Shown here: piece after piece, positions 13,526 through 64,000 of the stretch
Layout: each line of letters starts with the position of its first letter
How positions within the stretch are numbered: the stretch's first letter is position 1
From: Halogranum gelatinilyticum
GTDB lineage: Archaea; Halobacteriota; Halobacteria; Halobacteriales; Haloferacaceae
DNA length: 64,000 nucleotides
Direction of reading: 5' to 3'
Assembly: GCF_900103715.1 (NCBI RefSeq)
Contig: NZ_FNHL01000004.1
Span: 62,001 to 126,000, forward strand
Translations under genes and position numbers: made by a program
Notes under the pieces: model-generated
The model's input: the letters and a program-made list of their open reading frames with translations, nothing else
Told to the model about the DNA's origin: nothing
Databases searched by the model: none

Positions 13526-13535
13526 CGATAAATCT

Positions 13536-16828: not shown

Positions 16829-16837
16829 CAGTGAATT

Positions 16838-17746: not shown

Positions 17747-17887
17747 GATCTCGAGTAGGTGAAATACGTGTCTTCTTTGTCGGTTAAAACTGTTGTGCAA
17801 TCCTCATTAGCATGTGGACCCATTAGCAATTGGCAAGATTATTGCAATCCAATTAATACAAGGAACTGCCATATGCAATTGTAGCTA

Positions 17888-20992: not shown

Positions 20993-21003
20993 ATTGTTCG
21001 AAA

Positions 21004-22110: not shown

Positions 22111-22191
22111 CACGTGACTGACCTAATCAAGCGATAGGTCAAAACGCGACTCATTATTATTTTGTACTTTGAATCTGCAACAACCGAATAG

Positions 22192-23750: not shown

Positions 23751-23773
23751 GAATGGTGGGCTCTGTAGTTTCG
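23751..23773. repeat. Left target duplication and terminal inverted repeat of IS5-type element
   Basis: GAATGGTG (23751-23758) is repeated exactly at the right end (24685-24692). It is followed by GGCTCTGTAGTTTCG (23759-23773), the perfect inverse of 24670-24684. Confidence 0.92.
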
Positions 23774-41011: not shown

Positions 41012-43070
41012 GGTTCCGGAGCTCCCTACGTGTCTGTTCAGTCGGATCGAAGTCGATGACCCGCTTCTCGTGCTCCATCGCTCTGACCTCCACGCCACGC
41101 CACTCCCCATCGACACCCACTAACGCGTGAGAAAATCCCGCTTCCTCGTTGCCAGGCACAGCGTCCTGCACAAATCGCATCTGGGCGTGGTTCAACCCGA
41201 ACTCGTCGGCCCACTGTTCGTCCATCCCATCCAACCGATGGAACTGCTTGATTGCACACTGGTCCAAGATGGCCTCGGATTCGGCGTGCTCGAAGAACTC
41301 GTCGACGGTCTGGGTCACCAGTCGAATCGAGAGGTCGTGGTGACGGTGATGCCGGAACACCGTCTCTAAGAAAGACAGGCTCGCTGCGTCCTGCATGATG
41401 TAGCGTGCCTCGTCGATGACGAAGACGACCTCCTTGTCCGTCTCCTTCGCACGCTCATACACCAGCGAAATCAGTAGTTGCATCACGAGACTCGTCGCAC
41501 CACCGACGCTGCCTTCCTGTTGGGCCAAATCGAGGTAGACGACCTTCTCGTCGTGGATGTCGAAGTCCGTCTCCCGACCGAGATTCTCGTACTGCCCTCC
41601 ATCCTCGAAGGGTCGGAGTTGGTCAATGAGCCACGTGGCGTCATCGAGGAGTTTCTCGGCCTCGGCTGGAGAACGAACGACGAACTCCTCTGGTTCGTTG
41701 ATGAGATCTTCGAGCACGTCCAAGACGTCACGCATCGTCGGGCTCTCTTTCGAATGCGTCTCAACATCTTCCGTTATCCCACGCCGACTGTACGCTTCCC
41801 GAACAGCCAACTCCAGAGTTGTGCGTTTATCCCCCAGCTCGATATCGCGAAGCGCGAAGTAGTTCGCGAGGAAGCTCAACACGTCTGCGAGCTTTTCCGA
41901 AAAGGGGCTTGCGTCCTCACCCATCGCCCGTCGAACGTGTTCGGGCGTGGGCTTGATCTCTAATGGATTCAACCCGAGTGTTCCACCGACGGTCACTCGT
42001 TGTCCGCCGAGTGCTTCGGACACACCAGCCCAGTTGTTCAGTGGTTCAAGCACCACACCGATTCGGTCTTCGCTCTGTTCGATCGAGCGGATGAAGTTCT
42101 GTTTCGCGCCGAAAGACTTCCCGGAACCAGGGTCGCCGACGGTGAACATCGCATAGCCGTTTTCGCGTGCGAACGGATCGACGACGACGGGACTACGGAC
42201 GTCCTTGTGAATACCGACCTCGACCCCACCGTCTTCAAGAATCGTCGCACTATGCGGCGACGCCAACAACGCACCGACAGCACCACCCAAGGCAATCGAC
42301 TCCCGCCCGAGTTCGTTCATCCCAATCGGTGCGGCCGACTGGAGGGCTTTGTCCTGGACACAGATGGCTGTCTTTGGCGACAGGTTCGCTGGGTCGTCAC
42401 GAAGTGTCCGTTTGACTTTCCGAACCGAGTCACGCAACTCCGAGCGATTGTCTGCGCGGACCGTGACGAACGTCGCCTGGTCGAACACTTGGTGGCCGGA
42501 TTCGACAGCCCGATAGGTCGCCGCAGCCTCGGCAGCACGTTCTTGGAGATACGAACTGCGCACACTCTGTGCTAACTCAGCGTCGACCTGCAAGTCGTCG
42601 GCAACCTCCTCAAGCTCACTACGAGCGCGTTCGTAATCGCGCGGACGGACGTGGACCGTCAGGTCGAACTGGACGTCAGTGAGTTCGAACAACGCACTCA
42701 GATAGCCATCCTTCGGATAGTCGGGATACCCGGCCACGTACAGCGTACTCGTCCACTGCTCACCAACGCGTGCAGCACGAGTCTCCCATTCAATCGCATC
42801 CGGGGCAGTAACGTTCCGTTGGGATTCAGAGACGTCGTCGGTGCCACCCTCTGCGGTCAAGAACTCCACGAACTCGACTGTTTCTGCTTGCTCCGTGTCA
42901 CCTTCTTCATCACCCACGTCTCGGTCCGCATTCCACCGGAAATAGAGGGAGATCCCCGTGACAGCAAGCAGTGTAACCCCAACAGCCAACCCCATCGTTG
43001 ACGTGGAACTATCAACTACAGAGAATACGTCGTTCACAACTGTGCTCCCCTGAAGCACTGGCTCACTCAT
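41001..43070 (-). CDS. virB4: VirB4/TraC-like conjugation ATPase
   Basis: About 689 residues. A short hydrophobic helix lies at about residues 25-45, an acidic linker follows, then a VirB4 N-terminal-like region and the C-terminal RecA-like motor. Walker A is GDPGSGKS (312-319), Walker B is VFVIDEARYIM and RLVTQTVDEFF is a further motor motif. Energises pilus assembly or DNA transfer at the membrane. ATG 43070 overlaps the preceding gene by eight bases. Confidence 0.88.
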   Translation of the reverse strand: MSEPVLQGSTVVNDVFSVVDSSTSTMGLAVGVTLLAVTGISLYFRWNADRDVGDEEGDTEQAETVEFVEFLTAEGGTDDVSESQRNVTAPDAIEWETRAARVGEQWTSTLYVAGYPDYPKDGYLSALFELTDVQFDLTVHVRPRDYERARSELEEVADDLQVDAELAQSVRSSYLQERAAEAAATYRAVESGHQVFDQATFVTVRADNRSELRDSVRKVKRTLRDDPANLSPKTAICVQDKALQSAAPIGMNELGRESIALGGAVGALLASPHSATILEDGGVEVGIHKDVRSPVVVDPFARENGYAMFTVGDPGSGKSFGAKQNFIRSIEQSEDRIGVVLEPLNNWAGVSEALGGQRVTVGGTLGLNPLEIKPTPEHVRRAMGEDASPFSEKLADVLSFLANYFALRDIELGDKRTTLELAVREAYSRRGITEDVETHSKESPTMRDVLDVLEDLINEPEEFVVRSPAEAEKLLDDATWLIDQLRPFEDGGQYENLGRETDFDIHDEKVVYLDLAQQEGSVGGATSLVMQLLISLVYERAKETDKEVVFVIDEARYIMQDAASLSFLETVFRHHRHHDLSIRLVTQTVDEFFEHAESEAILDQCAIKQFHRLDGMDEQWADEFGLNHAQMRFVQDAVPGNEEAGFSHALVGVDGEWRGVEVRAMEHEKRVIDFDPTEQTRRELRNHGA

Positions 43071-44154
43071 TGTCGTCCCTCCGAGTCGAATCCCCGACGA
43101 CTGGCTGTTCACGAACTATCGACTCCGGCGTCGACTCGCGATGTTCGACGCCGTTCCAATACTCCCAGTTCAACGTGAACAGCTCGACAGTACTGAGTCG
43201 TCGTGCCGACCATCCCGAGGCTTTCTGAATGAACTCCGACTGGACGGCTCTAAGCCGCTTATCGAGCGTTTCCAGCATCCGACTCCGACGCTCACTCTCC
43301 GTGAGGTCCTCTCGTCGCGTGACAAACGGGGTGAACAGCACGCCAACTACCGGAAGTTCAGTGAGCCGCTCCGCAGGCGTTGCTTCCCGACGATTCCGTT
43401 GATACACCTCCAGCGGATGAACTTCGATGCCGATGAAGTATCGAACCTGTTGGATGCCACGACTCCGCATCTCCGCAGGACGTTGCTCACGATACTCTTC
43501 GAGAAGGGTCTCGAAGACAGGGTTTGTACCCACGTCCTCGTCACTCAATCGGCCGTCGATTCGTTCGACGATCGATTCAACCGGGAACGATTGCGTCGTC
43601 GCGTGGAACTTCAGTTTCCACGAGACCTCGTTGTTCGCAAACTCGGCACCGGCAGCCTGGAGTGTTGCCCAGTCGTCGGACATCGCGAAGTCCATGTTGC
43701 CAGGTGTGACCTCGACAAACGCTTCCATCGCACCATCGGTCCGTTGGACTGCGTTGGCACCGCTCCACGCACGTTCGATGGAAGTCAACTCCTGAGTGCG
43801 CTCTCCAGTCATGAAGGGAACACGGTCGTCAGTCGGCGTGACCGGCTCACCGGGTGGTGCGTGAACAGACAGCGACGGCCGTTTCAGATAGTGCCAGACC
43901 TGTCCAAGCCATGCCGGTGCTGTCAGATGCCGTGGTGTGATGTAGATGATGGCACTCGCCAAACCGGCACCACCCACGAGCAGCGGCAGTGCAAGTGACT
44001 CGACGCCAACGAGTCCAGCAAACAGGAGGCCAGCGACTGGAAGCGCGATTAGGACGCCCACGTCAGCCTCGTCGATGTTCAGATAGGGAATCCGACTCTC
44101 TTCTCCGAGTTCGGTCATGATCCGTCGTGCTGCAGCAGTGTCGTCTGTGTCCAT
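43063..44154 (-). CDS. VirB3/PrgI-like plus VirB4 N-terminal-like membrane protein
   Basis: 363 residues. Two adjacent membrane helices (about 32-52 and 54-72) resemble VirB3/PrgI proteins. The following 280 residues look like the CagE/VirB4 N-terminal domain (TQELTSIERAWSG, FVEVTPGNMDFAMSDDW, RYFIGIEV) but have no Walker motifs. This appears to be a separately encoded N-terminal half that works with the downstream VirB4 motor. Family assignment is by layout and context, so moderate. Confidence 0.6.
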   Translation of the reverse strand: MDTDDTAAARRIMTELGEESRIPYLNIDEADVGVLIALPVAGLLFAGLVGVESLALPLLVGGAGLASAIIYITPRHLTAPAWLGQVWHYLKRPSLSVHAPPGEPVTPTDDRVPFMTGERTQELTSIERAWSGANAVQRTDGAMEAFVEVTPGNMDFAMSDDWATLQAAGAEFANNEVSWKLKFHATTQSFPVESIVERIDGRLSDEDVGTNPVFETLLEEYREQRPAEMRSRGIQQVRYFIGIEVHPLEVYQRNRREATPAERLTELPVVGVLFTPFVTRREDLTESERRSRMLETLDKRLRAVQSEFIQKASGWSARRLSTVELFTLNWEYWNGVEHRESTPESIVREQPVVGDSTRRDDNE

Positions 44155-44162
44155 TGTCGAAT

Positions 44163-45230
44163 CTAGGGGTCGTTCTTCGTACGTCGATACCGCGGCTGGT
44201 GCTCGTCGTCCTGTTCAAACCGCTTCGAGACGCGGCGCACGGTCTCGCGCTTCGCCGCTTGTCGTGCGCCCCGATATGCAACCGTACGCGCAACTGTTGG
44301 ACCGGCGACGGAGCCGCCGACGGCAACTGCACCGACGGTCCCGACGGTCCGTGTCGTTGCCGCAAGTACCCGCGATGTAAGCGGCGTCGCATACTGGAAG
44401 GTCTTCCACGAGAGAACCACGGCGACGACAGGCAGCGACGCCGCAACGAGAAATTGCAGGTAGACCGTCGTTGGCGAGAGAATCCCCTGCCCGTACAGGA
44501 GGTCGTACCCACGGAAGACGACAGCAGCCGGCAGGGGAAGCAATGCAAGTGGAATGAAACGCCTGCAGAACCCATCCGCAATGTCGGCGACGACTGGGAC
44601 GTTGCCGTAGGCGAGTGCGACAGCGATAGGCATCCCGTACAGGTAGACGTACAACAGTACGTGTCGGATGTAGAGAAACGCCTCAAGTGCCCACATCGAG
44701 AGCCCACCGACAGCGGCGACGACGAACGCGAGTGCGGGGTTCGAGATTGAGACGGTGAGAAAGCTAGTCATCGCCGTTGCAACCGACTGCACACTCGGAA
44801 GGAGTGCAATCGTGAGTGCTTCAACGAGGTACAGAGAGACCGAGCCAATCCAGTACCACATCACGACGACCATTGCACCGACCCACGCCGTCTTCGAAGT
44901 TCGCCGAGCGGCGTAGGCACTCCCGACGTTGAAGATACGCAGGGTGTGGCGAGCTTGGACGCACACCACGAGGATGAGCAAGGCAAGTAGCGTCACCTCG
45001 CCACCCACCAGTGCATCACGGAGTTGTGGCCACGGCGCGTTCGACGGGACGCCAAAGATGAACGAGCCGTTCGTCTCGGGCGTTGGCGTTCCAAACAACT
45101 CCGCTGAAAGCTGCTGATAGCCACCGTTGAGTCCGTCGATGAATTGGGCAGTAATCCACTCGAGCGCTTGCTTGAAGCCTTCGAGGACGACGTCGATTAG
45201 TTCAACCACAGTGGAACCTCCGGAGTCCAC
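44163..45230 (-). CDS. VirB6/TrbL-like polytopic membrane protein
   Basis: 355 residues. A first amphipathic segment is followed by six to seven membrane helices between about 75 and 285, and a positively charged C-terminus (RRTKNDP end). The size and helix density fit the VirB6/TrbL channel component. Eight bases separate it from the next gene. Function inferred from topology and operon. Confidence 0.7.
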   Translation of the reverse strand: MDSGGSTVVELIDVVLEGFKQALEWITAQFIDGLNGGYQQLSAELFGTPTPETNGSFIFGVPSNAPWPQLRDALVGGEVTLLALLILVVCVQARHTLRIFNVGSAYAARRTSKTAWVGAMVVVMWYWIGSVSLYLVEALTIALLPSVQSVATAMTSFLTVSISNPALAFVVAAVGGLSMWALEAFLYIRHVLLYVYLYGMPIAVALAYGNVPVVADIADGFCRRFIPLALLPLPAAVVFRGYDLLYGQGILSPTTVYLQFLVAASLPVVAVVLSWKTFQYATPLTSRVLAATTRTVGTVGAVAVGGSVAGPTVARTVAYRGARQAAKRETVRRVSKRFEQDDEHQPRYRRTKNDP

Positions 45231-45273
45231 GGTGGCGGCCGAAACAACTGCTCGTAGACGTGTTCTGAATCAT

Positions 45274-46917
45274 TCACAGAAACCTCTGAATATCGAAGAT
45301 ATTGAGGAAGGCTCGCCCGGCGGCGTAGACAACGGCAAACGGAATCAGGTTCCAGCTGACAGTGAGTGCGAGGTGCCACCAGCCACTGCGTGTCGACAGC
45401 GGGTGCCACCTAATCGTCTCAGTGGATGAGGCATACGCAGGCTCGGCCGTCAACCATGATTCGGGGTGGTATCGAACAGTGTACACACCCGGTTGCGAGA
45501 GGGTTACGGTGGCGACACCACTCGAGTTTGTCTCGACGCGTTGACCGGCAATCGTGATGTATCCATCTCGATCGTCGAATCTGATCGGTTGACTTCCACG
45601 CTCAGGGTCGGCAAGGACAATTGGGTCGCCAACGTCATGGTAGAGTTCAATCCGAACCGTCGCTTCCGAGGCGTCTTGCTCAACAACGCGCACCGAGAGA
45701 TTGCTCTCTCGAATGCGTGTCCGGTTCGTCGACTCCGCTACACGAGCCGTCACACCACGGACGATACCGATGACTCGAACGTCGTCGAGTGACCCAGATG
45801 ACGTCCGCACGGCAACACCGTATGAGGTCTTGTACGTCCCATCAACGACTTCGACACTGATGTTCTCTCCAAGCGTTTCCTCGGCACCACGGCGTTCGAT
45901 ACCCCAGACTCGCTGGAGTGTCGGTCCATCTCGTACCGGCTGTGTTCGCGGGCCAATTCGAGAGGGATACGCGTGGACGTACACCGGGTGTGCATCCGAG
46001 TGCTCCACTGTGGTCCCACCAGCGTTCGCACGAACCACTCGGTCCCACTGTGGATTCCGAGCGGTGTAAAATCGCCAGACGCCACGAACTCGGTGGTCAC
46101 TCATTCCGTCGAGGACATAGCCCTGCCACGGTAACGGCTGAAAGACCGCAATCTCCGTCTTACCGTTTGGATACGTCGCCGCCGATCCAACGGCGTCGAG
46201 ATCGTAGACAGTGACAGACTGTGAATCAGAGATGGTGAGAGTCTCCACTGATTCGTTTCCACCTGTCGTCTCGACACGGACCCGGATGTCCGCCTCCAGT
46301 GTGAGCGTCGTCGGACCGCCTGAGAGTTCGCCGTACGTCAGCGTCGGTGTCTGTGTGTCACTGACTTCGTCGATGACTCTCCCTTCTCGGAGCACCCTCA
46401 CTGCGGTGACCTCGTGGCTGACGACGCTGAGAGACTGATTACCCATCGTCTCTCGGATGCGGTAATCAACGAGGCCACGAACCGTGCCGTTCGGGGCGAT
46501 GTATAGCGGCGTCTCGCCTGAAGCGATGTGTGCTCGTGTCGAGGGCTGCACTGCAAACGTCGTCGCGTGGGCGTCGGCGATGTACGTCCCGTTCCGTGTA
46601 TCAGCATGTGGGGGATACACCGACTCCCGTACGCCACCGGGCCGGAGATCAGTGAAGTCATTTCGTGTCCACGTCGCCGCAGTCGCCGGTGGTCGCTTGA
46701 ACGAGATGTCCGTCGCTGCGGCAACTGCCTCGACACCCGTTTGAGAATTCTCTGGAACGCCTGTGTCGGCGTCGCGAGACCACACTGTCGCGGACTCGTT
46801 CTGTGAGAGTCCGTTATCCTCCCCCGACGCATTGTTGCCCACGACGACGCCAGCCCAAAGACTCACCACGACACAGACGGCGAACACCCCCGCAGCGAGC
46901 GAACGACAAGCAGACAT
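45274..46917 (-). CDS. Exported, C-terminally membrane-anchored surface protein of the conjugation module
   Basis: 547 residues. Residues 1-28 form a signal peptide-like helix ending AGVVVGNN, and a single membrane helix lies near 515-540 (HLALTVSWNLIPFAVVYAAG). Between them is a beta-rich extracellular region with Ig-like segments (for example ITIAGQRVETNSSGVATVTL). The Asn-x-Ser/Thr sites could be glycosylated. Likely contacts recipient cells or stabilises the pilus; that is inference. Confidence 0.68.
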   Translation of the reverse strand: MSACRSLAAGVFAVCVVVSLWAGVVVGNNASGEDNGLSQNESATVWSRDADTGVPENSQTGVEAVAAATDISFKRPPATAATWTRNDFTDLRPGGVRESVYPPHADTRNGTYIADAHATTFAVQPSTRAHIASGETPLYIAPNGTVRGLVDYRIRETMGNQSLSVVSHEVTAVRVLREGRVIDEVSDTQTPTLTYGELSGGPTTLTLEADIRVRVETTGGNESVETLTISDSQSVTVYDLDAVGSAATYPNGKTEIAVFQPLPWQGYVLDGMSDHRVRGVWRFYTARNPQWDRVVRANAGGTTVEHSDAHPVYVHAYPSRIGPRTQPVRDGPTLQRVWGIERRGAEETLGENISVEVVDGTYKTSYGVAVRTSSGSLDDVRVIGIVRGVTARVAESTNRTRIRESNLSVRVVEQDASEATVRIELYHDVGDPIVLADPERGSQPIRFDDRDGYITIAGQRVETNSSGVATVTLSQPGVYTVRYHPESWLTAEPAYASSTETIRWHPLSTRSGWWHLALTVSWNLIPFAVVYAAGRAFLNIFDIQRFL

Positions 46918-46939
46918 GAACTGAAGAATCAGTATCTGT

Positions 46940-47347
46940 CTACCACGGTGCGAGATTCACACAGTCGGCCAGTGGCAAGTTCATAATTTCCCCGGCGACG
47001 CTGTATAGCGACCCGAGCACGAGAAGAATCACTGCGGACTTCAGTGCCGAGCGTTTGTGTTCTTTGACGCCTTTCTTCTGTTTGGGGTTCAGGGTAAACA
47101 GCTCAAGAAGCGAATCAGCTTGCCAGACGATAACCAACCCGACGATGCCGAGACCAGTCGTAAGTTGAAAGAAGCCTTCAATGATGCCGGGGAGTTTACT
47201 CGTCTGGCAGATGGCGTTCGTCGTCGATTGGGCGAACGCTGGCTCAACGGCGACGAGTGCAAAGAGTGCGAGCGGAAGTGCTCTTCCCACCCACCGATGT
47301 GTTCGTGATGCTGTTCGACTCGTTGTAGTGTTGCCACTCTGTGACAT
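46940..47347 (-). CDS. VirB2/TrbC-like pilin
   Basis: 135 residues. The signal peptide RALPLALFALVAVEPAFAQS has a signal-peptidase site after AFA. The mature protein has two hydrophobic helices (about 62-82 and 105-125) separated by a short basic loop NPKQKKGVKEHKR, the classic VirB2 hairpin. Two Cys residues (about 47 and 129) may form a disulfide. First gene of the conjugation operon, consistent with high expression. Confidence 0.8.
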   Translation of the reverse strand: MSQSGNTTTSRTASRTHRWVGRALPLALFALVAVEPAFAQSTTNAICQTSKLPGIIEGFFQLTTGLGIVGLVIVWQADSLLELFTLNPKQKKGVKEHKRSALKSAVILLVLGSLYSVAGEIMNLPLADCVNLAPW

Positions 47348-47700: not shown

Positions 47701-47723
47701 TCGATGTGCTCTCAACACAACGT

Positions 47724-49112
47724 ATGGACGAGTTCGTCGACCGAGAGGCCGAACTAGCACGGCTGGAAGAACTGTATGAGTCACTAAATCCAGAACTGGC
47801 AGTCATTTACGGCCGGCGACGGCTGGGAAAGACCGAACTCGTCAAACAGTCACTGCGCGGGCGGGAAAACACGGTTGTCTACCAAGCACGCCAGAAGACC
47901 AAGGAGTTACAGTTACAGCAGTTCGCCGAAATCGCAGCCAAAGAATTCCCCGGTGTCAGTCGCATTCAGAATGACTGGGAATCGCTGCTTGGTTATTTGG
48001 CCGAGCAAGACGCCATTATCGTCCTCGACGAATTTCCGTATCTCATTGAGGAGGATGCGAGCCTCCCGTCTGTGTTGCAGGCGATGTATGACTATGAGTT
48101 GGATGACGCAGCCCCCACGATTGTACTCATTGGGTCTTCGATTAGCATGATGGAGGAGGCAGCACTCCTTGGGAATAGCCCGCTATATGGTCGTGCTTCG
48201 GTCAAACTCGATGTTCTCCAACTGCCATTCAGTGCTGCAATGCAGTTCTTCAAGCACACATACACACCCGAAGAGCAGGTCCTGCTGTGGAGTGTCTTCG
48301 GTGGAACGCCGTATTATCTCGAAGAGGCAGCAACGGCGACGAACCTCAGCGAGGCAGTCTCAGAAACAATTCTCGCACAACACGGGTCATTGCACAACGA
48401 CCCCGATTATGTCCTTCGGATGGAGCTAACTGAGCCGACACGGTACTTCGCTATTCTCGAATCGATCGCTGGTGGCGCAACAGTGCGAAACGAGATTGCA
48501 CAAGCGTCGGGAATCGACAACAACCAACTCTCGAAATACCTGAACCGTCTAGAGCGACTTCGGCTCATCGAACGACACGTCCCAATCACTGAACAAAAAG
48601 AGCGGTCTCGCCGGGGGCGATACCGAATACTGGACCCGCTGTTCCGGTTTTGGTTCAGATTCGTCTACGGGACTGGGACTCGCTACGACGACTTCGGCGA
48701 CGACGCGTTTGCCACACTGGTTGAACCTGAGTTGGCAGATTTCGCAAGCGGCGAGTTCGAGCGTCTCTGTCAACACGCCCTCCGTGAACTGTACCCCCAG
48801 TACACAATCACCGACGTCGGTCAGTGGTGGTTCCGTGAGCACGAGGTTGACGTCGTCGGATTCACCGCTGGAGACACACTCATCGCCGGCGAATGCAAGT
48901 TTCAACAATCTCCGTTGGGGTACAACGCCCTTGCATCGCTCGAGGACCACGTCGACGAACTACGTTGGACACCACCAGGTGGTGGCGAACGGTCCTGTGA
49001 GTACGCGCTGTTCAGTCGGAGTGGATTCAAGCAATCCGTCACAGAGGCAGCCAGTGAACGGGAGAACATCCGTCTAATCGATCTTCCAGAGATTGTCGAG
49101 AAACTCGAATAG
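47724..49112 (+). CDS. AAA ATPase with DUF234 nuclease-like C-terminal domain
   Basis: 462 residues of the archaeal ATPase_2/DUF234 family. MDEFVDREAELARLEELY is the standard start, Walker A is YGRRRLGKTELV (about residues 27-38) and Walker B is IVLDEFPYL. A winged helix follows (ASGIDNNQLSKYLNRLERL), then the C-terminal PD-(D/E)XK-like DUF234 domain with EVDVVG and AGECKF, plausible nuclease residues. ATG 47724 is supported by the TATA position. Often found near mobile elements; target unknown. Confidence 0.86.
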   Translation: MDEFVDREAELARLEELYESLNPELAVIYGRRRLGKTELVKQSLRGRENTVVYQARQKTKELQLQQFAEIAAKEFPGVSRIQNDWESLLGYLAEQDAIIVLDEFPYLIEEDASLPSVLQAMYDYELDDAAPTIVLIGSSISMMEEAALLGNSPLYGRASVKLDVLQLPFSAAMQFFKHTYTPEEQVLLWSVFGGTPYYLEEAATATNLSEAVSETILAQHGSLHNDPDYVLRMELTEPTRYFAILESIAGGATVRNEIAQASGIDNNQLSKYLNRLERLRLIERHVPITEQKERSRRGRYRILDPLFRFWFRFVYGTGTRYDDFGDDAFATLVEPELADFASGEFERLCQHALRELYPQYTITDVGQWWFREHEVDVVGFTAGDTLIAGECKFQQSPLGYNALASLEDHVDELRWTPPGGGERSCEYALFSRSGFKQSVTEAASERENIRLIDLPEIVEKLE

Positions 49113-49198
49113 GATACAGAGTTAGGCACGGGCCCCACCGATGAGTGCGGATGACATGGAGGAGACAGAATCAAACCTGTCGACACAGATGCAGACGT

Positions 49199-49864
49199 AT
49201 GAAGCTCGGCCTCATTTCCGACGTCCATGGAAACCTCCCAGCACTCGAAGCAGTTCTTGAGGATCTGCCAGCGGTCGACATGATCGCCTGTGCTGGTGAT
49301 GTCGTCGGGTATAACCCGTGGCCAGCAGACTGTGTCGAGCGAGTCCGGGAGGTCGCCGCTATCACGGTTGTTGGCAACCACGACCGTGCGGTCGGTGATA
49401 GAGAGTCGTTCCGTGCGAACTCGATGGCACTGGCCGGAATCGAATATGCGCGAGAGGAACTCTCTGATGAACAGAAAGATTGGTTAGCTGAGCTTCCGCG
49501 GAAAGCAACGCTCGCCGACGGGTCAATCCTCTTGGTCCACGACCATCCTACCGTGCAAGACCGCTACGTCTTCCCTCGGCATTTTCCGGAGGTCAGACCT
49601 CACATCGACGAGTACGATGGAGCCGTTCTCGGTCACACACACAGACAGCACAAAGCTCGTATCGATGGTCGACTCATCGTCAATCCTGGAAGCGTGGGAC
49701 AGCCTCGTGACGGTGATTCCGACGCCGCCTATGCCGTTCTGGATACCGACGCTCTCGAAGTTGAACTCCACCGTGTTGAGTACGACATCAATCGGGTCAT
49801 AGAGCGCGTTGAGGAAGCAGGACTCCCACCAGAAATCGGAACACGCCTACTCGATGGCTCATGA
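49199..49864 (+). CDS. YfcE/MJ0936-type metallophosphoesterase
   Basis: 221 residues starting MKLGLISDVHGNLPALEAVL. The metal ligands are in SDVHGN (Asp, His), CAGDVVGY, GNHDRAVG and HDHPT/GHTHRQ, the complete calcineurin-like set. Probably a cytoplasmic phosphodiesterase. The upstream ATG at 49145 would add a Cys/Arg-rich tail absent in relatives, so 49199 is preferred. Confidence 0.88.
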   Translation: MKLGLISDVHGNLPALEAVLEDLPAVDMIACAGDVVGYNPWPADCVERVREVAAITVVGNHDRAVGDRESFRANSMALAGIEYAREELSDEQKDWLAELPRKATLADGSILLVHDHPTVQDRYVFPRHFPEVRPHIDEYDGAVLGHTHRQHKARIDGRLIVNPGSVGQPRDGDSDAAYAVLDTDALEVELHRVEYDINRVIERVEEAGLPPEIGTRLLDGS

Positions 49865-50050: not shown

Positions 50051-51916
50051 TCAGCCGGTCGTCGATGAGAACAGCGTCTGCTGTACCACCAGCTGCTCAA
50101 TCACGACGAGAGCACCGTAGAAGACAACACTGGCTCCGACGGCCGCATAGGCCACGGTCTCGGTGGGAATCGCCGTCTGTAGTTGCGAGAGGCCGGTGAG
50201 CCGTACCGTGAAGTACGCCGTCCCGGCGAGGAGCGCGGCTCCTCCCCCGACGAGCACCCACGACCGGCGGAGCACTCTCGTACGTGACCGTCGGACGAGT
50301 AGCGCGAGGCCGCCGATAGCGACAGCGGAGACGACCAGAAAGAGGTCGGAGCCGAAAGCGATCGACGGGGGGAGAGCACCTAGGGTATGAGCGACCCACA
50401 CCAGATAGCCCGTCAAGACGGTGCCGGCGACGAAAGCGATCAGTCCGCCCCGGAAGAGCCGACCGGTCGCATCGACCGTCACGCAGACGAAGCCACACGC
50501 GACCGCGAGCTCGACGAGCGGCCGAACCACACCCACGTCGCCGAACGGGACGCCGACACCCGAGAGGAGAACTCCACCGGCGACCGCGATGCTCCCGGCG
50601 AGGCCGAATACGGTCGACGGTTCGTGGACGGGGACGTAGGACTCCGTCAGGTCGTCCAGTCGCCACTGCGCCTCGATGTGGAGGCTCCGAAGGACCAGGG
50701 TGTGGAGCCCAAACGCACAGAGCCCGGCGACTGCTGGGAGCCCCACAGTGGGTAAGGGGGGTATCGAGCCGACACCCCGCCCGGTCCAGTTCGCGACGGG
50801 GCCCAGCAACGGCAGCACGTAGCAGAGTCGCACGAGGTTCCCGAACGACATCGGCCCCGCGAGGGTTGCCCCGACGACACCAGCCACGCTCGCGAGTCCC
50901 CCGGCGAAAGACAGGAGACCGACGAGAGTGGGTCCGAGCCGTGCGCCGACCTCGGTGTAAACCATTCCGACGGAGGCAACTGTCAGCACGAATCCAACCA
51001 TCGCCAGCACGAGCCAGCGGTCGAAGCCGTTCTTCGCCATCCGCAATCGCGGGGAAATCCCCGCGAGTGGGATGACCGAACGGGTTCCGAGCGTCCAGCT
51101 GACGAGCGGCAGCTCCCGGCGGCCGAACCCGCGTTCGGCGAGCGAGTTCCCCCCGCGTATGAGGTTCTGTCCCCATAGGTCCTCGTCGTCAGATTCGCGG
51201 GGGCCTTCACCGTCCTCAGTCGCGAGTACAGGGTCGTATCCACGGAGCCGCAGTTCGGCTCGCCGGAGTGCCCGCTGGGTGGACCGAAGTGTCTCACCGA
51301 CGTCCTGAAGGGCTCGGCCGGCCACGACTTCAGTGGTCCCGACGGTGTCGGCAAGCCGTCGACGAACGCGTTCGACGACGGTTCGGGATTCTCTGTGTGC
51401 GACCCACGCAGCGAGCTCGTCGTCGTCAATCCCGAGTTCGCCTCGATAACGCCGATAGAACGCGACGCTCGTGTGGTTCCGTATCAGCCTGATGAGGTCG
51501 TGGCCGTCGATTAATTTCACACCCAGATCGGCTGCCCGGTCGTGCGCCTGTGAGGTGAACCGTCCGGTCGTGACGAGCAGCCCCTCGTCGGCGCCCACCT
51601 GATACTTCATCGCAAAGTACTGTTGGATCTCCGGGCTCCCGACTGTGTTCGACTCTTTGTACCGCTTCGCCTGTATCGCCGTTGTCTTCCCCATCGGTCC
51701 GCGTTTCCGTGCGATGACGTCAATCCCGTTGTCCCCGGATGAGGGCCGTTCGACGGTCTTGTACCCCATCTCCTCCCAGAGCTCGGCGACGAACCGCTCG
51801 AACCGGTCGTGGTCCATTCGTCGCAACGAGTGCAGCGACGGGTTCGGCGGAGCGATGTCGTCAGGTCCGGTTGCCGAAGCGTGCAACAGCCGTTCGGTGA
51901 GTCGTCTATCTGCCAT
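50051..51916 (-). CDS. Mrr-type restriction endonuclease fused to a polytopic membrane domain
   Basis: 621 residues. The N-terminal 150 residues are an Mrr catalytic domain (PD-(D/E)XK): DHDRFERFVAELWEEMGY, Asp in SGDNGIDVI (61-66) and Gln-x-Lys in AIQAKRY (81-87). That is the usual Mrr pattern and suggests DNA cleavage. After a basic helical linker (about 150-285) come some nine to ten membrane helices up to the C-terminus. ATG 51916 is preferred because CGAACTTATTGG on the minus strand (51947-51936) looks like BRE/TATA about 25 bases upstream. A GTG at 52018 overlapping the previous stop is the alternative. Confidence 0.8.
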   Translation of the reverse strand: MADRRLTERLLHASATGPDDIAPPNPSLHSLRRMDHDRFERFVAELWEEMGYKTVERPSSGDNGIDVIARKRGPMGKTTAIQAKRYKESNTVGSPEIQQYFAMKYQVGADEGLLVTTGRFTSQAHDRAADLGVKLIDGHDLIRLIRNHTSVAFYRRYRGELGIDDDELAAWVAHRESRTVVERVRRRLADTVGTTEVVAGRALQDVGETLRSTQRALRRAELRLRGYDPVLATEDGEGPRESDDEDLWGQNLIRGGNSLAERGFGRRELPLVSWTLGTRSVIPLAGISPRLRMAKNGFDRWLVLAMVGFVLTVASVGMVYTEVGARLGPTLVGLLSFAGGLASVAGVVGATLAGPMSFGNLVRLCYVLPLLGPVANWTGRGVGSIPPLPTVGLPAVAGLCAFGLHTLVLRSLHIEAQWRLDDLTESYVPVHEPSTVFGLAGSIAVAGGVLLSGVGVPFGDVGVVRPLVELAVACGFVCVTVDATGRLFRGGLIAFVAGTVLTGYLVWVAHTLGALPPSIAFGSDLFLVVSAVAIGGLALLVRRSRTRVLRRSWVLVGGGAALLAGTAYFTVRLTGLSQLQTAIPTETVAYAAVGASVVFYGALVVIEQLVVQQTLFSSTTG

Positions 51917-52014
51917 CGAATCGACACCTACGTGACCAATAAGTTCGGGTCGTCTGACAAATATGTGCCGCCACAAGCGGGAGGGCTCGCCGCCCTCGCC
52001 GGACGCGTGAGACG

Positions 52015-53793
52015 TCACCGGCCGAGCGACTGGAGAAGTAACCCTGCCCCACGGAGCGGCGTCGGTCCCGAGAGGTCAATAGCACGGCCGTCGACCGACG
52101 GGTCGGTGACGCCGTACCAGAGGACGTACGGACGGTCCGGTGACACCACGGTTTCGAGGAGTTGGCACTCTTCGGTACTGAGGTCTTCGTACACACTCGA
52201 CTCCGTCAGATAGCGTCTCCTGACAAATTCAGCGAAGTCGCGTGGAAAAATGTTGTCGAGCGTCTCAAGGCTGTCTTGGGTTGCGTACTCGAAGTGGTTG
52301 ACTGCCAGGTCGGCCATCGTCACGACGGGCCTGACGTTCGTCGTGTTCGACGTCGCTCGATGGAGACCCTCGTACGCACGGAGGTACGACGAGGGAGCCT
52401 GACGCTGGGGGCGGCCGACGTCGACGAGGACGGTCCCCTCTCGACGGTACGTCGGATAGACCCGTTTCGCCGTCCCCCCATGTGAGACGGCGAGTTTGTC
52501 CAGTTCGTCGCTGGAGGGGACGCCGTCGTCCCACTGTCGTAACCGCGTCGACAGCGACGCCGGATACAGTGTCCGGTCGGCTGGATGTTCGACGACCGTC
52601 CCGACGAAGTCGTCCAGTGGCAGCACACAGAGGACGTCGTCGGCGACAGTGGTAGCATCGGCGACTGCCTCGGTGTACCGACCTGCCGATTCGGCGTCGT
52701 CGGCACTCGCGATGGCGTCGCGCCACCGTGTCCGAGACTGGCCGGTCAACCGCCGGACCCAGCGTTCGGTCCGTGAGTCTGTTCCCGCGTTGGTGTCTTT
52801 GGTCGCGTCGACGATTCGGTCCAGTTCCCCCGGGTCACAAACGACGGCGAGTTCGACGTGTGTCGGGAAGAACCGTCCCAGCCGGTACCGGAGAACGTGT
52901 GTCTGCCAACGACTCTCGCTCCCCTCGTGATCCGGTTCGGGAAACCGGCCGTCGTCGGTCAACAGTTGTTCGAGTTCCGTGACTGTCTCTGGGTCGTCAA
53001 GACGGTCCGCGCCGAGCACGCTCAGGTCCTTCACGGCCCGTCGCAGTCCCCCCGCGACGGAGCGTCGACCGCTCGAATGTGGTCCAACGAGGAGAGCACG
53101 TCGGGTTCGTTCGACCGACGACACCGTCAGGACGGAGACCGCTCCGAGCGTCGAGAACCCGCCCAGAGCGATGGCGACGACGCCAGCGACGGGTCGCCCC
53201 CCAGAGACGGCCATAGAGACGCCGGTCAGACAGTAGCCACCGCCGAGGAGGACGACGGCAGCGACGACGGCGTACTGGACGACGGAGTCGCCCGAGACCG
53301 GACCGTACCGGGTGTCGACGACGCCCGACTCGAGAGAGACCGCCGCGACGAACGTCGAGATGCCCGCCAAGACGACTAGTGCCAACTGGAGTGGTGTACT
53401 CCCGACGACGGCCTGCACGACGGGGACGGGACTGACGAGGAGTCCGACGACCAGGCTCCCGCCGGTGACGACTGTGGCTGTCCAGGTCCGTCTTGTGTAG
53501 TCGACTCCAGCGACAGCACCGAAGACGCTGGCGAGCACCGGTCCCCAGCCGCCGACAGGGCCGAAGACGGTGGTGAGTAGGGCCCAGACACCACCGAGCG
53601 GCCACTGACTCGCGACGGCCGTCTGATAGCCCGTCGCCAGCGTTCCGGTGGCCGCCGCTCCGAAGGCAATCAGCGAGAGGAGTACCGACAGTTCCCACTG
53701 GGAGTAGCTCAGACGTCCCTCGTCGACAAAGTAGAGAGGATTCCAAGAGGATGGCCAACTGTCCACTAATTGAGTAGAACACAACAGTGACAT
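52015..53793 (-). CDS. Membrane protein with degenerate NTPase-like cytoplasmic domain
   Basis: 592 residues of unknown family. Six or seven membrane helices lie between about 33 and 225. The soluble part begins with ALLVGPHSSGRRSVAGGL (233-250), which looks like a Walker A loop with Lys changed to Arg. Later segments DDVLCVLPLDDFV (385-397) and VRPVVTMADL (487-496) resemble the Walker B and base-recognition strands of a G domain. The protein at 57350-58825 has the same layout and motifs. Divergent from the tubulin-like gene with a 101-base spacer. GTG 53764, about 29 bases after CATATATG, is an alternative start. Confidence 0.62.
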   Translation of the reverse strand: MSLLCSTQLVDSWPSSWNPLYFVDEGRLSYSQWELSVLLSLIAFGAAATGTLATGYQTAVASQWPLGGVWALLTTVFGPVGGWGPVLASVFGAVAGVDYTRRTWTATVVTGGSLVVGLLVSPVPVVQAVVGSTPLQLALVVLAGISTFVAAVSLESGVVDTRYGPVSGDSVVQYAVVAAVVLLGGGYCLTGVSMAVSGGRPVAGVVAIALGGFSTLGAVSVLTVSSVERTRRALLVGPHSSGRRSVAGGLRRAVKDLSVLGADRLDDPETVTELEQLLTDDGRFPEPDHEGSESRWQTHVLRYRLGRFFPTHVELAVVCDPGELDRIVDATKDTNAGTDSRTERWVRRLTGQSRTRWRDAIASADDAESAGRYTEAVADATTVADDVLCVLPLDDFVGTVVEHPADRTLYPASLSTRLRQWDDGVPSSDELDKLAVSHGGTAKRVYPTYRREGTVLVDVGRPQRQAPSSYLRAYEGLHRATSNTTNVRPVVTMADLAVNHFEYATQDSLETLDNIFPRDFAEFVRRRYLTESSVYEDLSTEECQLLETVVSPDRPYVLWYGVTDPSVDGRAIDLSGPTPLRGAGLLLQSLGR

Positions 53794-53894: not shown

Positions 53895-56800
53895 ATGGCT
53901 GTCAACAACAACGGGGAATACCGTGCCCAGATTCCCGATACGATCATCGGGATCGGGGGCGGGGGCAAATCCGTCGTGTACACGCTTCTTGACCAGGATT
54001 GGATCCTCAAAGAGGCACTGGAACCTCGTGACGATACAGCTACCCCGGGGTTCAACCCCGTTGTCGTCGACTCCGAGAGCGGAGCGGGCAACAATGACGA
54101 CTCGCTGGCTAAAGAATACTCGGAGCGGATCGACGAGTTCGCCACGAGTCTCGGACACAACGCGAATAGCTCGGAGCTCACCTACATCAACACCGTCGAG
54201 GAGAGTTCGGTCCAGGATACGGTTTCGTTGACCGACGGGACACCCGTCAACGAGATCGCCCGCGCTTCCAACCTCCGCAGTTGGTGGGTCGACGACTCCG
54301 ACCGGATGATCGACACCGACGACAACTTCGCGGAGGGTGTCAACCGACGTCGGGCACTGAGTAAGGCGTTCTTCCACGGAACCCGAGCGAACAGAGACCC
54401 GTTCAACGAGGTCGTCAACCACGCAGGGACCTCCGTCTACATCGTCGTCGGGCTCGGTGGGGGGACTGGTTCGGGGACCTTCCTCGATCTGGCCCGGCGG
54501 TTCGACGACAACACCTCGGTCCATCTGTTCGGAATCCTCCCCGGTCAGAATGCCGGATCACAAGAAGACGCCAACGCCCACGCTGCCCTCTCTGAACTCG
54601 AATATCTCTCGCTCACCGACAACCTCCCGTTCGACAACGTCGTCATCGTCCCGTTCGCGCCGGCGACGGACTACGGCGACTTCGACGAGGCGGTCGTCAA
54701 CGCGATGATCTCTCACGCCAACATCGCCGAACAGGGAGTAATCAACAACCACGCAGACTTCTTCAATCCCGGTGAGGGAGCGGCAGTCAAGAAATTCGCC
54801 CCGTTCACCATCGCGGTCCCCAAAACCTTCCACATCGACGTTCCAGAGATCGAGGAGGCTGCCGAGAAAGTTGAGTCGTACGTGACCCGAATCGAGGGCG
54901 CGCTCGACACCGAGGAGGCGCTCTACAACAGGATCGAATCGATCCTCCTGCGTCCCGAGGATTTCGCCGAAGAGCGCACTGGAGCGTTCGAAACGGGGAG
55001 TCTCCCGGGCGACGTACGAGAGGCGCAAGACGCGCTCAGAGAGAGCCTCGACGGCGGCTCCCCCGAGTCCACGCTGTTCCAGTTAGACACCGGTGAGGCC
55101 GAACGGCTCGAAGAGCGACTCAACAACCTGCGTTCGTTGCTCGAAAAGGAGATTTTCGATGATCTGAACTTCCTCGGACCGGCAGGACTCGCAAACAAGA
55201 TCGACAACACCGAAGACCAACTCGATGTCCAACGCGAAGACGTCAACGATGTCGAGTACTTCGAGCGCCTCGTCGACAAACTGTATCGGGTCTTCGAGAC
55301 GCTGAGCGTTGAGGACATCCTCGACGCTGGAAACCGTAACGTCGACCAGACGGACCGAGAACTGACCAAACAACTCAAGCGAGAGATACTCCTCATCGGG
55401 AAACGGAGCACCTTCCTCCGAGCACTGCACGTAATCGAGGACGACAAACCCCTCCGACGTGGGCTGCAGGCGGCTATCGGCCCGAAAGTTGAGAACTTCG
55501 CCATTGTCGACGACGCTGACCGCGCACGGCGGGACCTTCTGAGTGCGGAGTCCCGTGAGCAGAACTGTCTCGAGGCACTTGAGTCGGCACTGACTGATTC
55601 ACAGGACGAACTCGAACGAGCCCTCGAAGAGTGGGAGACGTCCGTCGAGCCGGATGTCGACCGGCTTCTGTACATCGACTCACACCGCGACGAGATTGAA
55701 GAACTCCTCGCGAAGCTGAACCGGAAGATCGGACAGGCCGTCACCGACCTCAAACGTCCGGGGAACGAAGCACCCGCCCGACAGCCACTGGACTTCGACG
55801 AGTTCGGCAAACTGAACAATATGCTGAAATCCGCTGGCGGCGAGCGCGTCCCCCAAGATGCCATTCTAACGTCGCTCAAGAACCTCTCGAACATGAGGCG
55901 GGCGAAGATCGAAGACGAGGACGGTGGGGGATACATTCCGTTCCTCGGAAGCAACAACAACAACTCCGATCCGGAAGGCGACTACGAGAACGCCCTCATC
56001 AACGTCAACGATCAACTGTTCGACACGGAGCCAGAGTTCCAGCGGAGCTTCGACGTTACGTTCGTCGGGGAGGAAGCCATCGAGAGCCGACTCGACGACG
56101 TCGACAAGGCCCGGCGCGAGGCAGTCGAAGCGATCCTCGAAGACCTCGACAGCTACACCCAACAGACCGTCGGGTTCGAGGAACTCGTCGACGACCCGTC
56201 GGATCTCGCGAAGTGTGAATTCGACATCACGCTCGGACTGAAGCGCCACCAGAACGACTACAAACATACGCTGAAGAGCGAGCTCAATCGAACGTTCACT
56301 GAGACGACGACGAGCTCCCTCCTGCGGGACCTGACTAGATCCGACGACGGGCAACGCGGTTCGTCGGAGATCGATAACGTCGTCAGACAGGCACTCTCGG
56401 CGGCTATCGTCGATCCGATACAGGACTCGCTAGAATCCCGACGGGCGAGTTTGGTCGACGACCAGATCCGGCTGAGCCTCTTCGATTCCGTCCGCGACCT
56501 CGTCAACGAGGAGGGCAAAGAGTTCACGAACAACCGGAGCATCGAGATATCGCTCGACGTGAGCTTCAGCGAGCAAGCGCGGGCAGCGAACCCGCACAAA
56601 GAGCGAATCTCTCCGCACAACCGCGGGACGTTCGTCGGCTACGACGACATCGAGGCGGCCGATATCCTCGACAACGACCGGGAGATGGAGCGGCTGCTGG
56701 CGAAGTTCAGCCAACAGGCCACTTCCATCGCTGCAGGCGACGATATCGCGCCGATACTCAACCCAAGTCTCAGGCGACATAAGGGAAAGAAGGTCTCGAA

Positions 56801-57329
56801 CGCGTCACCGTACTACGAGGGACAGGTAATCAAATCGGTATTCCTCTCCCGGGCGTTCGGAGAGTCACAACAGGCCAACGCGAACCTGACGCTATTCAAC
56901 GACGAACTCAAGAACAACGGCTTCGACGGCATCCGCTTCCAAGAGAACATGGAGTTCTACAACGAGATGCAGGTCGCGTACGGCGCGCCGTGGGACATCA
57001 CGATGACGACGTTCGTCGGCGGGGTCTTCCTTGACAACCTAGCACCGGCCGGAAGCGTACGGAGCGGCTACCTGCAAGCCTACAGAGGCCAGCGTGACGA
57101 ATTCGGCGAAGACATCATCGTCCGTCACGTCCACGGTCTCGACGGCCACGACAAGTATCTCGACCTCGATTTCAACGAGGGCGCGTACGTGTACCGTGAC
57201 GAGCTCGTCAACGTCCTCGGAGACGAACGGGATCTCTTCACTCTCGGTAACGAAGACGACATCGCGAACGAACTCATCGAGAAGTACACCGTGACTCGCT
57301 TCGACTCGCCGGTGCCGTTAGAAGAGTGA
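53895..57329 (+). CDS. Giant tubulin-superfamily protein (Tubulin_2-like)
   Basis: 1144 residues, about three times the size of FtsZ or CetZ. The N-terminal 350 residues look like a tubulin/FtsZ GTPase: DTIIGIGGGGKSVV (15-28) at the T1 loop, VVVDSESG as the next strand, VVGLGGGTGSGTFLDLARRF (184-203) containing the GGGTGSG signature, and LFGILPGQNAGSQED. The remaining 800 residues are helical and acidic with coiled-coil stretches (about 400-470, 520-620), then a C-terminal beta-rich part near 980-1144. It resembles the poorly known Pfam Tubulin_2 group of large tubulin-like proteins. No signal or membrane segment. First gene of a plus-strand operon with the next two. Confidence 0.85.
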   Translation: MAVNNNGEYRAQIPDTIIGIGGGGKSVVYTLLDQDWILKEALEPRDDTATPGFNPVVVDSESGAGNNDDSLAKEYSERIDEFATSLGHNANSSELTYINTVEESSVQDTVSLTDGTPVNEIARASNLRSWWVDDSDRMIDTDDNFAEGVNRRRALSKAFFHGTRANRDPFNEVVNHAGTSVYIVVGLGGGTGSGTFLDLARRFDDNTSVHLFGILPGQNAGSQEDANAHAALSELEYLSLTDNLPFDNVVIVPFAPATDYGDFDEAVVNAMISHANIAEQGVINNHADFFNPGEGAAVKKFAPFTIAVPKTFHIDVPEIEEAAEKVESYVTRIEGALDTEEALYNRIESILLRPEDFAEERTGAFETGSLPGDVREAQDALRESLDGGSPESTLFQLDTGEAERLEERLNNLRSLLEKEIFDDLNFLGPAGLANKIDNTEDQLDVQREDVNDVEYFERLVDKLYRVFETLSVEDILDAGNRNVDQTDRELTKQLKREILLIGKRSTFLRALHVIEDDKPLRRGLQAAIGPKVENFAIVDDADRARRDLLSAESREQNCLEALESALTDSQDELERALEEWETSVEPDVDRLLYIDSHRDEIEELLAKLNRKIGQAVTDLKRPGNEAPARQPLDFDEFGKLNNMLKSAGGERVPQDAILTSLKNLSNMRRAKIEDEDGGGYIPFLGSNNNNSDPEGDYENALINVNDQLFDTEPEFQRSFDVTFVGEEAIESRLDDVDKARREAVEAILEDLDSYTQQTVGFEELVDDPSDLAKCEFDITLGLKRHQNDYKHTLKSELNRTFTETTTSSLLRDLTRSDDGQRGSSEIDNVVRQALSAAIVDPIQDSLESRRASLVDDQIRLSLFDSVRDLVNEEGKEFTNNRSIEISLDVSFSEQARAANPHKERISPHNRGTFVGYDDIEAADILDNDREMERLLAKFSQQATSIAAGDDIAPILNPSLRRHKGKKVSNASPYYEGQVIKSVFLSRAFGESQQANANLTLFNDELKNNGFDGIRFQENMEFYNEMQVAYGAPWDITMTTFVGGVFLDNLAPAGSVRSGYLQAYRGQRDEFGEDIIVRHVHGLDGHDKYLDLDFNEGAYVYRDELVNVLGDERDLFTLGNEDDIANELIEKYTVTRFDSPVPLEE

Positions 57330-57349: not shown

Positions 57350-58825
57350 ATGACCCGTTCACGCGTTTACGACGGTGCGCTGTTGGTCGTGTCGATAGCC
57401 GTGATGATCCTCTCTGCGAGGCCGTTCACAGGACTATTAGTCGACGCGTGGTCAGTTGAAAGCAGCGTCGTCGCCGCCGCCGTAACCGGCTTCCTCTCGG
57501 CCATCGGAGCGACTCTCGCGTCTGCAATCGCGTTCACGACCGGACTGCTCGGTGTATTCATCCTGTTGTTCCTGTTCGACTCGTCAAAGAAGGTTCAGGC
57601 ACTCGTCTTCGTGCTCGCGCTCCCGCTGTTCTTCACCACGTTGAACCGCTTCGACCTGTGGACAATCCCGTGGACACGAGAACTGATTCCGTTGGCGGTC
57701 GGGGTTGTGGTTGCTCTTCCCATCGGAACCGCCGGTGCGCGGGTCGACACCGAGTCCGACGGCGCGATCCCGCGAGTTCGGGAGTTCCCAGCGGCGACAC
57801 GGGCGATTTACTGGATCGTCGTCGTCTCAGTCCTCGTGGCACTCGTCCAGGTACACGTGTTGGCCGGGCAACCAGGCATCGTACTGAACGTGGTCCTCTC
57901 CGGGGCCATCGTCGCACTCACTGCCGTGTTTACGACGTATCAAGACGACCGGTCGGTCCTCATCATCAGTCCCGATCCGTACGAGGAGGCGAACGTCCTC
58001 GGAGGGATCTATCAGGAAGCGAGAAGCCGCTTCGGAGCCGAGGCGATAAACGAGGGGAGTTCGATCGCGACCGAAGACGTCTCCGCGCTGGGCCGTGCAC
58101 GAAAGCTCACGGCCCCCGACCTCGACCTCGACCAGAGTTCGGGGATGACGGTCGCAGCAGCGGCGAAAGAACATCTCGTGGAGATCCGTGGCGACGCCGG
58201 GTTCAGGTTCCGTGCGCCCGGTGTGTTCGGCCGAACGCTCGAAATCATCGCGCACGGATACGGCCCGGACGACATTCGACGCGAAGACTTGGACGCGCTG
58301 GACGACAACGGCCAGTCGTCGCGCCTCGACTCGCTGCGACGACGTGTCGTCGACTTCGCCGGGTTCGTCCTCCCAGCGATGCTCCCGGCGTTCGTCCGAG
58401 AGCGGCTCACCGGTGGCCCGACGAAGAGCATTGGTGAGGCGATACGAGACGCCGACATCCTCCTCCTCGTCGCCCCGCTTGACGACCAGGTCGCCGAGGG
58501 AGCCGCGACGCAGGACGCTGGCGACAGATCGACGGTACTCGGCAAGTACGACGCAATCTGTGGGTCGGACGCTGTGAAGGAGAAGACAGTTCGGATGGTC
58601 GTCACGGACAGCCACCGGCTGAAAGACGAGTTCGAGGAGAAACGGAACGCGTCGACCAACTCACCGCCGTCGAAGTATCTCCGTCGTTTCGGGCGGTTCT
58701 TGAACCAGACGAGGTTGGGGAACACGTGCTGTGAGGTCGTCCCCGTCTTTCGAGTGCTCAACTCAGAACGAGAGATGGACACCCGACTCTGGGGTGCCAG
58801 CGAACTACTGGAGGAAGTCTATTGA
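57350..58825 (+). CDS. Membrane protein with degenerate NTPase-like cytoplasmic domain (second copy of the architecture)
   Basis: 491 residues. About six membrane helices lie between 8 and 197, then a cytoplasmic domain starting SVLIISPDPYEEANVLGGIY (202-221) where a P-loop would be expected but the Gly/Lys are missing. DADILLLVAPLDDQVA (367-382) and VRMVVTDSHRL (414-424) follow. The PLDDxV and VVT motifs match those of the protein at 52015-53793. It starts 20 bases after the tubulin-like gene, so the two are in one operon. I infer a membrane anchor or receptor for the tubulin; no enzymatic activity is evident. Confidence 0.62.
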   Translation: MTRSRVYDGALLVVSIAVMILSARPFTGLLVDAWSVESSVVAAAVTGFLSAIGATLASAIAFTTGLLGVFILLFLFDSSKKVQALVFVLALPLFFTTLNRFDLWTIPWTRELIPLAVGVVVALPIGTAGARVDTESDGAIPRVREFPAATRAIYWIVVVSVLVALVQVHVLAGQPGIVLNVVLSGAIVALTAVFTTYQDDRSVLIISPDPYEEANVLGGIYQEARSRFGAEAINEGSSIATEDVSALGRARKLTAPDLDLDQSSGMTVAAAAKEHLVEIRGDAGFRFRAPGVFGRTLEIIAHGYGPDDIRREDLDALDDNGQSSRLDSLRRRVVDFAGFVLPAMLPAFVRERLTGGPTKSIGEAIRDADILLLVAPLDDQVAEGAATQDAGDRSTVLGKYDAICGSDAVKEKTVRMVVTDSHRLKDEFEEKRNASTNSPPSKYLRRFGRFLNQTRLGNTCCEVVPVFRVLNSEREMDTRLWGASELLEEVY

Positions 58826-63898: not shown

Positions 63899-64000
63899 CA
63901 CTGGTCGAGAACCCGTCCGATACCGAGATGGTCACAGATTGCGTCGATGTCATTCATGCGCTTTTTCAAGTCGTCGTAGATGTCCATGTGGCTGAACATC
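63898..64000 (-). CDS. C-terminal end of a gene running off the right edge
   Basis: The last 33 codons of a minus-strand gene are visible, ending DHLGIGRVLDQ. Its stop codon overlaps the start of the coiled-coil membrane gene, so they are co-translated and the cluster continues beyond the window. Too short to assign. Confidence 0.6.
   Translation of the reverse strand, partial: MFSHMDIYDDLKKRMNDIDAICDHLGIGRVLDQ

Follow-up and report, generated by a model that had tools for sequence, protein, structure and literature searches.

Why would an Mrr-type nuclease be built into a large membrane protein, and does the tubulin gene encoded close by have a part in what it does? The combination lies in a 64,000-nucleotide stretch of Halogranum gelatinilyticum (contig NZ_FNHL01000004.1), here called the window, and we were interested whether both halves of the protein, termed Mrr-TM, are what they appear to be, how rarely they are joined, and which function the neighbourhood suggests.

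Nuclease and membrane parts of Mrr-TM

The gene and its parts are as follows.

50051 to 51916, minus strand: Mrr-TM gene, 621 aa, ATG start; an alternative in-frame GTG at 52018 is possible
51482 to 51826, minus strand: Mrr/REase catalytic domain, residues 31-145 (Pfam Mrr_cat, Foldseek)
51665 to 51721, minus strand: catalytic residues, with D66 at 51719-51721 and Q82-x-K84 at 51665-51673
51236 to 51424, minus strand: long helical linker, residues 165-227 (AlphaFold2 model, block pLDDT ~52-79)
50054 to 51046, minus strand: polytopic membrane domain, residues 291-621, about 10 helices by hydropathy, no Pfam family

A start at the GTG would lengthen the protein by 34 residues and run into the stop codon of the upstream gene. 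The initial annotation had read a complete Mrr catalytic motif (GDNGID plus QAK) from the letters, and a match to Mrr_cat over the full model length (E 2.3e-30; 105.5 bits against a Pfam cut-off of 21) bears this out and rules out a chance occurrence of the motif. In an alignment of three sequences D62, I65, D66, Q82 and K84 were invariant, and the fourth homologue reads SGDAGID...IQVK, so that D66, Q82 and K84 are kept in all four proteins. Modelling of residues 1-165 from the three-sequence alignment (mean pLDDT 68) and a Foldseek search led to MspJI (E 5.9e-6) and AspBHI (E 4.7e-5) as best PDB matches, with the matches to these two enzymes ranging from 5.9e-6 to 9.5e-5 and weaker scores for EndoMS, AF1548 and the CRISPR nuclease Can2. 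The assignment of the N-terminal part as a motif-intact Mrr nuclease domain of the REase fold is therefore well supported, and cutting is predicted. Its core is also the best-conserved part of the protein, with identities of 75% and 50% compared to 37% and 26% in the membrane part and 34-46% over the whole length. Mrr-TM thus shares the REase fold, the D...QxK motif and a full-length Pfam match with type IV/Mrr nucleases such as MspJI and AspBHI, but, unlike them, it carries a helical stalk with roughly ten membrane helices behind it, and Pfam recognised no separate DNA-recognition domain in it. No solved structure was matched by sequence, and a comparison with NCBIfam gave no match.

The stretch behind the nuclease had been described as a basic linker, but with 27 K/R and 24 D/E in residues 146-300 it is near neutral. 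By Kyte-Doolittle analysis the Haloparvum protein has 9 hydrophobic segments and each of the other three (window, Halobellus, Haloplanus) has 10, in agreement with the roughly ten helices first counted. The full-length AlphaFold2 model showed a mostly helical membrane domain at pLDDT <50, which is unusable, and a fold assignment from it was dropped. As the predicted inside loops of the window protein carry 10 K/R compared to 3 in the outside loops, the N-terminal nuclease is predicted to face the cytoplasm, which is the topology that had been proposed as a check. Loss of the catalytic Asp/Lys in homologues or a soluble C-terminal part had been named as refuting outcomes, and neither occurred.

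A promoter of its own, also claimed for the gene, found little backing. The upstream region contains no sigma-70-like site, a pattern that is not of the archaeal type in any case, and no TTTAWA box. In AT content, the 60 nt that precede the ATG rank within the top 2.5% of windows across about 50051-53792, which makes an archaeal promoter possible.

Rarity of the polytopic domain

To the initial annotation a nuclease fused to a large membrane domain seemed unusual. For the distribution searches, the C-terminal membrane domain without Mrr was used as query, and the genome samples overlap. The domain was found in 3 of 392 genomes of the order (single-sequence search), in 4 of 170 genomes of the family (profile search) and with certainty in three of 391 genomes of the class, where four further matches (E 0.001-0.008) were short and judged to be due to chance. 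Two loci in genome_contigs belong to Halobellus salinus and Haloparvum sedimenti, and one of 72,556 plasmid records, Haloplanus rubicundus pCBA1112-01, matched over 97% of the query. Altogether the domain was found in four genomes, and each of the four copies is fused to Mrr. A viral origin of Mrr-TM was rejected, as no relative of the membrane domain was detected in viral_contigs and phage records match the Mrr domain only.

For comparison, 92 places with PF04471 were collected from 42 tubulin-bearing genomes, three of them Mrr-TM and 89 others. Among these 89, 44 have no predicted helix, 41 have one, three have two and one has three, with none at four or more, although the hydropathy count is crude and the genomes were selected for tubulin and are not a random sample. 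At least one helix, mostly a single tail anchor, is therefore predicted in 45 of the 89, indicating that membrane attachment of Mrr is common in these archaea, and the notion that a membrane-bound Mrr is rare as such was rejected. Among the closest Mrr domains, four (46-53% identity) likewise come from proteins for which one to three helices are predicted. About 32 of the 89 places represent a widespread tail-anchored haloarchaeal Mrr family (e.g. L098-L138) of ~454 aa, which has the Mrr domain and the membrane attachment in common with Mrr-TM but possesses one C-terminal helix and an RDx..ECK motif. Strict catalytic-motif patterns, matched by 22 and 19 of the 89 places, turned out to be too narrow for this 454-aa family and were set aside. 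What stands of the original claim is the polytopic domain, which is the rare feature and a new partner for Mrr nucleases; attachment to the membrane as such is not. A polytopic Mrr protein tied to tubulin was not reported in the literature covered by our searches, which is no proof of its absence from print.

Linkage to tubulin cassettes

The genes on the other side of Mrr-TM are listed here.

52015 to 53793, minus strand: membrane GTPase-like protein, 592 aa, P-loop degenerate (GPHSSGRRS)
53895 to 57329, plus strand: FtsZl1-type tubulin, 1144 aa (Pfam Tubulin_2, E 1.6e-11; GGGTGSG loop at residue 188)
57350 to 58825, plus strand: second membrane GTPase-like protein, 491 aa, no P-loop
58928 to 62311, plus strand: 1127-aa protein with a weak beta-propeller match (PF13570, E 4e-4, below cut-off), probable cassette member
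62312 to 63901, minus strand: 529-aa protein with 2 hydrophobic segments, possible cassette member

The 592-aa gene is located directly upstream of Mrr-TM on the same strand, and the genes for the tubulin and the 491-aa protein are divergent from it. The FtsZl1 family was named by Makarova and Koonin in 2010, who predicted a role in membrane remodelling and noted vWA proteins and GTPases as partners (PMC2875224). Both marks of the family, a Tubulin_2 protein with a GGGTG(S/T)G loop and a GTPase-like membrane protein, are present beside Mrr-TM, together with further shared traits, namely the N-terminal GTPase domain of the tubulin, archaeal membrane GTPase-like partners and the many partners with membrane segments; a difference is the nuclease, as no such component is mentioned in the parts of that paper drawn on here.

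With the tubulin search, 46 of the 392 genomes were found, of which four were excluded (sole match a 361-394 aa protein, without the GTPase family) to leave 42. In profile searches over the surveyed loci, both GTPase-like proteins of the window fell into a single family of 46 members, most of which carry GPxxSGK[ST] and an ATKAD-like motif; weak matches to Pfam DO-GTPase1/2 were obtained for 1-2 of 17 members. Out of 41 surveyed tubulin loci, 37 contain at least one GTPase-like gene, 28 the third gene and 8 two or more GTPase-like genes, while seven further tubulin genomes outside the locus survey have one GTPase gene each. The paired cassette thus occurs in 8 of 392 genomes. HSP70, DnaJ, GrpE, vWA and PQQ beta-propeller proteins are encoded in related haloarchaeal cassettes; with Pfam, the window cassette yielded no HSP70/GrpE/DnaJ or vWA partner, nor was the third gene typical of such cassettes detected in it. 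PADLOC matched no protein of the window cassette except Mrr-TM, to which its type IV models correspond. An intact P-loop is present in neither of the two window GTPase-like proteins, whereas the other seven paired cassettes each keep at least one. Either the window cassette is altered or decaying, or Mrr-TM is independent of GTPase cycling.

The initial annotation had pointed to the neighbouring tubulin system and proposed a survey of homologous loci, and this survey revealed Mrr-TM in or next to an FtsZl1-type cassette in three of four copies, two of them together with the GTPase-like pair and the third immediately ahead of a second tubulin gene. In the window, Mrr-TM follows the GTPase-like gene and thereby takes the third-gene place of the other paired cassettes. 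In Haloparvum (L038) it is the last gene of an operon (GTPase, third gene, 485-aa protein, Mrr-TM) divergent from the tubulin. On pCBA1112-01 of Haloplanus rubicundus, Mrr-TM precedes by 200 bp a tubulin gene of the same orientation, which is not accompanied by a GTPase gene. This circular plasmid also bears, about 21 kb away from Mrr-TM, a complete tubulin cassette (L179:11055-29882; plasmid NZ_CP031147) in the order beta-propeller, two hypothetical proteins with GTPase matches, tubulin, GrpE, Hsp70 and vWA. Within the 20 kb read around the Halobellus copy no tubulin was observed, and a tubulin cassette is found on another contig (L037). A gene near the Halobellus copy (L036:4669-6633, plus strand) encodes a 654-aa protein that is rich in CxxC repeats, weakly matches a DnaJ zinc finger and contains 5 hydrophobic segments.

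Tubulin and GTPase-family genes are present in all four Mrr-TM genomes. In the 392-genome sample the three genomes with Mrr-TM are all among the eight with a paired cassette (hypergeometric probability 5.6e-6; with the window genome excluded, 2.8e-4), figures that ignore relatedness and refer to a paired class defined after seeing the data. Mrr-TM is beside the cassette in only two of the 42 tubulin genomes of this sample. The tubulins linked to it are ~24-36% identical over BLAST stretches, compared to 50-75% for the Mrr cores, and as the tubulins are more diverged than the nuclease domains, the link looks like a repeated association. That Mrr-TM recurs next to different tubulins argues most strongly for a putative working link between the two.

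Several other genes surround the cassette. Just past the end of the window, L002:399-2081 (minus strand) is a second tubulin-superfamily gene beside the window cassette; its 560-aa product has cysteines close to the N terminus and matches Pfam Tubulin (E 2.6e-11). About 11 kb beyond the tubulin gene of the cassette an HNH endonuclease-domain protein with predicted hydrophobic segments is encoded (L002:4899-6074, minus strand). On the other side, the minus strand of 37107-47347 holds a conjugation/T4SS-like block with coupling-protein-like, VirB4/TraG-like and TrbL_3 (E 5e-117) matches. It is followed at 47706-49112 (plus strand) by an ATPase_2-DUF234 protein whose C-terminal part weakly resembles Mrr (E 0.0065) and which PADLOC matched to PDC-S27 (E 1e-41). 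A metallophosphoesterase (49145-49864) is encoded next to Mrr-TM, and two other tubulin loci have one nearby as well; since these two loci are similar plasmid stretches, we do not count it as part of the cassette. Positions 12001-24000 have a GC content of 41-46% and few long ORFs, possibly reflecting foreign or decayed DNA.

Possible function of Mrr-TM

We give roughly an even chance to the reading that Mrr-TM is a membrane-held Mrr-type endonuclease serving as an accessory DNA-cutting effector of the FtsZl1-tubulin/membrane-GTPase cassette. The protein would consist of a cytoplasmic N-terminal REase-fold domain that a long helical stalk connects to the polytopic membrane part. Entry of a virus or plasmid, or another event at the membrane, may trigger the assembly of the tubulin and the GTPase-like membrane proteins, which would concentrate or release the Mrr domains and lead to cutting of DNA near the membrane. 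That DNA is the substrate, that tubulin gates the enzyme and that the purpose is defence we infer from this arrangement. More tentative, and rather doubtful in its full form, is the extension that FtsZl1 filaments and membrane GTPases sense a breach of the membrane and switch on membrane-built nucleases, with horizontal transfer exchanging the effector among cassettes. Against the effector reading stand the membrane remodelling predicted for such cassettes in PMC2875224, the Halobellus copy with no tubulin in the 20 kb read, the small number of tubulin genomes with Mrr-TM by the cassette (2 of 42) and, in the window, the GTPase-like proteins without an intact P-loop, the third gene that was not found and the lack of PADLOC matches outside Mrr-TM.

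Pfam presumably includes GAP1 models, and no GAP1-named family was found with it among the window cassette proteins or the scanned relatives, where distant forms could be missed. Systems with GAP1 as a core part are the subject of PMC7159879, a study by Kaur et al. In the sections considered here, it describes predicted conflict systems in which double GTPases are combined with a tubulin or with HSP70/GrpE/DnaJ, and lists an Mrr-like clade in the section on nucleic-acid effectors, not for the tubulin systems (PMC7159879). The DO-GTPase/GAP1-N2 systems, as far as described there, share with the present cassettes the tubulin and two GTPase-like membrane-helix proteins, and with related cassettes also HSP70, GrpE, DnaJ, vWA and beta-rich proteins; the window cassette differs in being archaeal, in having no GAP1 match and in its degenerate P-loops. 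As GAP1, a core part, was not seen, the cassette may be said to work like such a system, not to be one. A second parallel is Zorya, described in the part of PMC11890865 used here as a ZorAB membrane complex with the Mrr-like nuclease ZorD, in which membrane sensing is coupled to a nuclease. Membrane-based sensing and a nuclease would be common to both, but Mrr-TM joins nuclease and membrane part in one chain, and tubulin replaces the ion-driven motor. With PADLOC, neither ZorA nor ZorB was matched in the window cassette, and only the Mrr part of ZorD was.

The main competitor, which we regard as possible but distinctly less probable than a cassette effector, is that Mrr-TM works by itself as a membrane-held restriction enzyme of the modification-dependent (type IV-like) kind, without tubulin, with which it would share a mobile or defence island. 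The nearest folds, MspJI and AspBHI, are modification-dependent and the PADLOC type IV matches point the same way, as do the Halobellus copy without adjacent tubulin, the abundance of small membrane-anchored Mrr proteins in haloarchaea and the one to three helices of several nearest Mrr relatives. The location of three of four copies in or by tubulin cassettes, beside different tubulins, argues against such an enzyme, as does the lack of a separate DNA-recognition domain in the Pfam search. If Mrr-TM were instead a DNA tether that cuts hardly or not at all, by which tubulin moves or holds DNA during the partition of plasmids or chromosomes, the occurrence of two copies on or beside mobile DNA (pCBA1112-01; the T4SS-like genes of the window) would fit, and the plasmid tubulins TubZ and RepX are named as serving plasmid stability in the part of PMC2875224 referred to here. 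Retention of D66, Q82 and K84 in all four proteins, the high conservation of the Mrr core and the many tubulin cassettes without an Mrr neighbour make a tether unlikely.

Two further explanations are less probable still. Mrr-TM might belong to a membrane-remodelling or envelope-stress machine with the nuclease as a fail-safe killing device, in line with the remodelling predicted for FtsZl1 cassettes (PMC2875224, in part) and with the connection of DO-GTPases to membrane-related stress made in the portion of PMC11237479 used; no direct sequence sign of remodelling was found, and this explanation, which we consider improbable, overlaps partly with that of a cassette effector. Slightly more improbable again is entry exclusion or DNA processing for the conjugation-like T4SS genes, whose matches lie ~3-13 kb from Mrr-TM: no T4SS match was detected among the few scanned Halobellus and Haloparvum neighbours, and the annotation around the Haloplanus copy lists none either.

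The observation made in the initial annotation was thus confirmed, and its interpretation is partly supported, namely in the catalytic motif kept in all four homologues, the predicted cytoplasmic nuclease and the link to the tubulin system in three of four loci; cleavage of incoming DNA at the membrane, toxicity and activation by tubulin would be possible consequences. Since their description in 2010, the role of FtsZl1 tubulins has been guessed from context only, and a motif-intact nuclease linked to their cassettes offers a biochemical output that can be tested as DNA damage or as restriction of viruses or plasmids in organisms with working genetics. If a membrane-held effector nuclease is indeed what Mrr-TM represents, a cytoskeletal protein would be tied to nucleic-acid defence.
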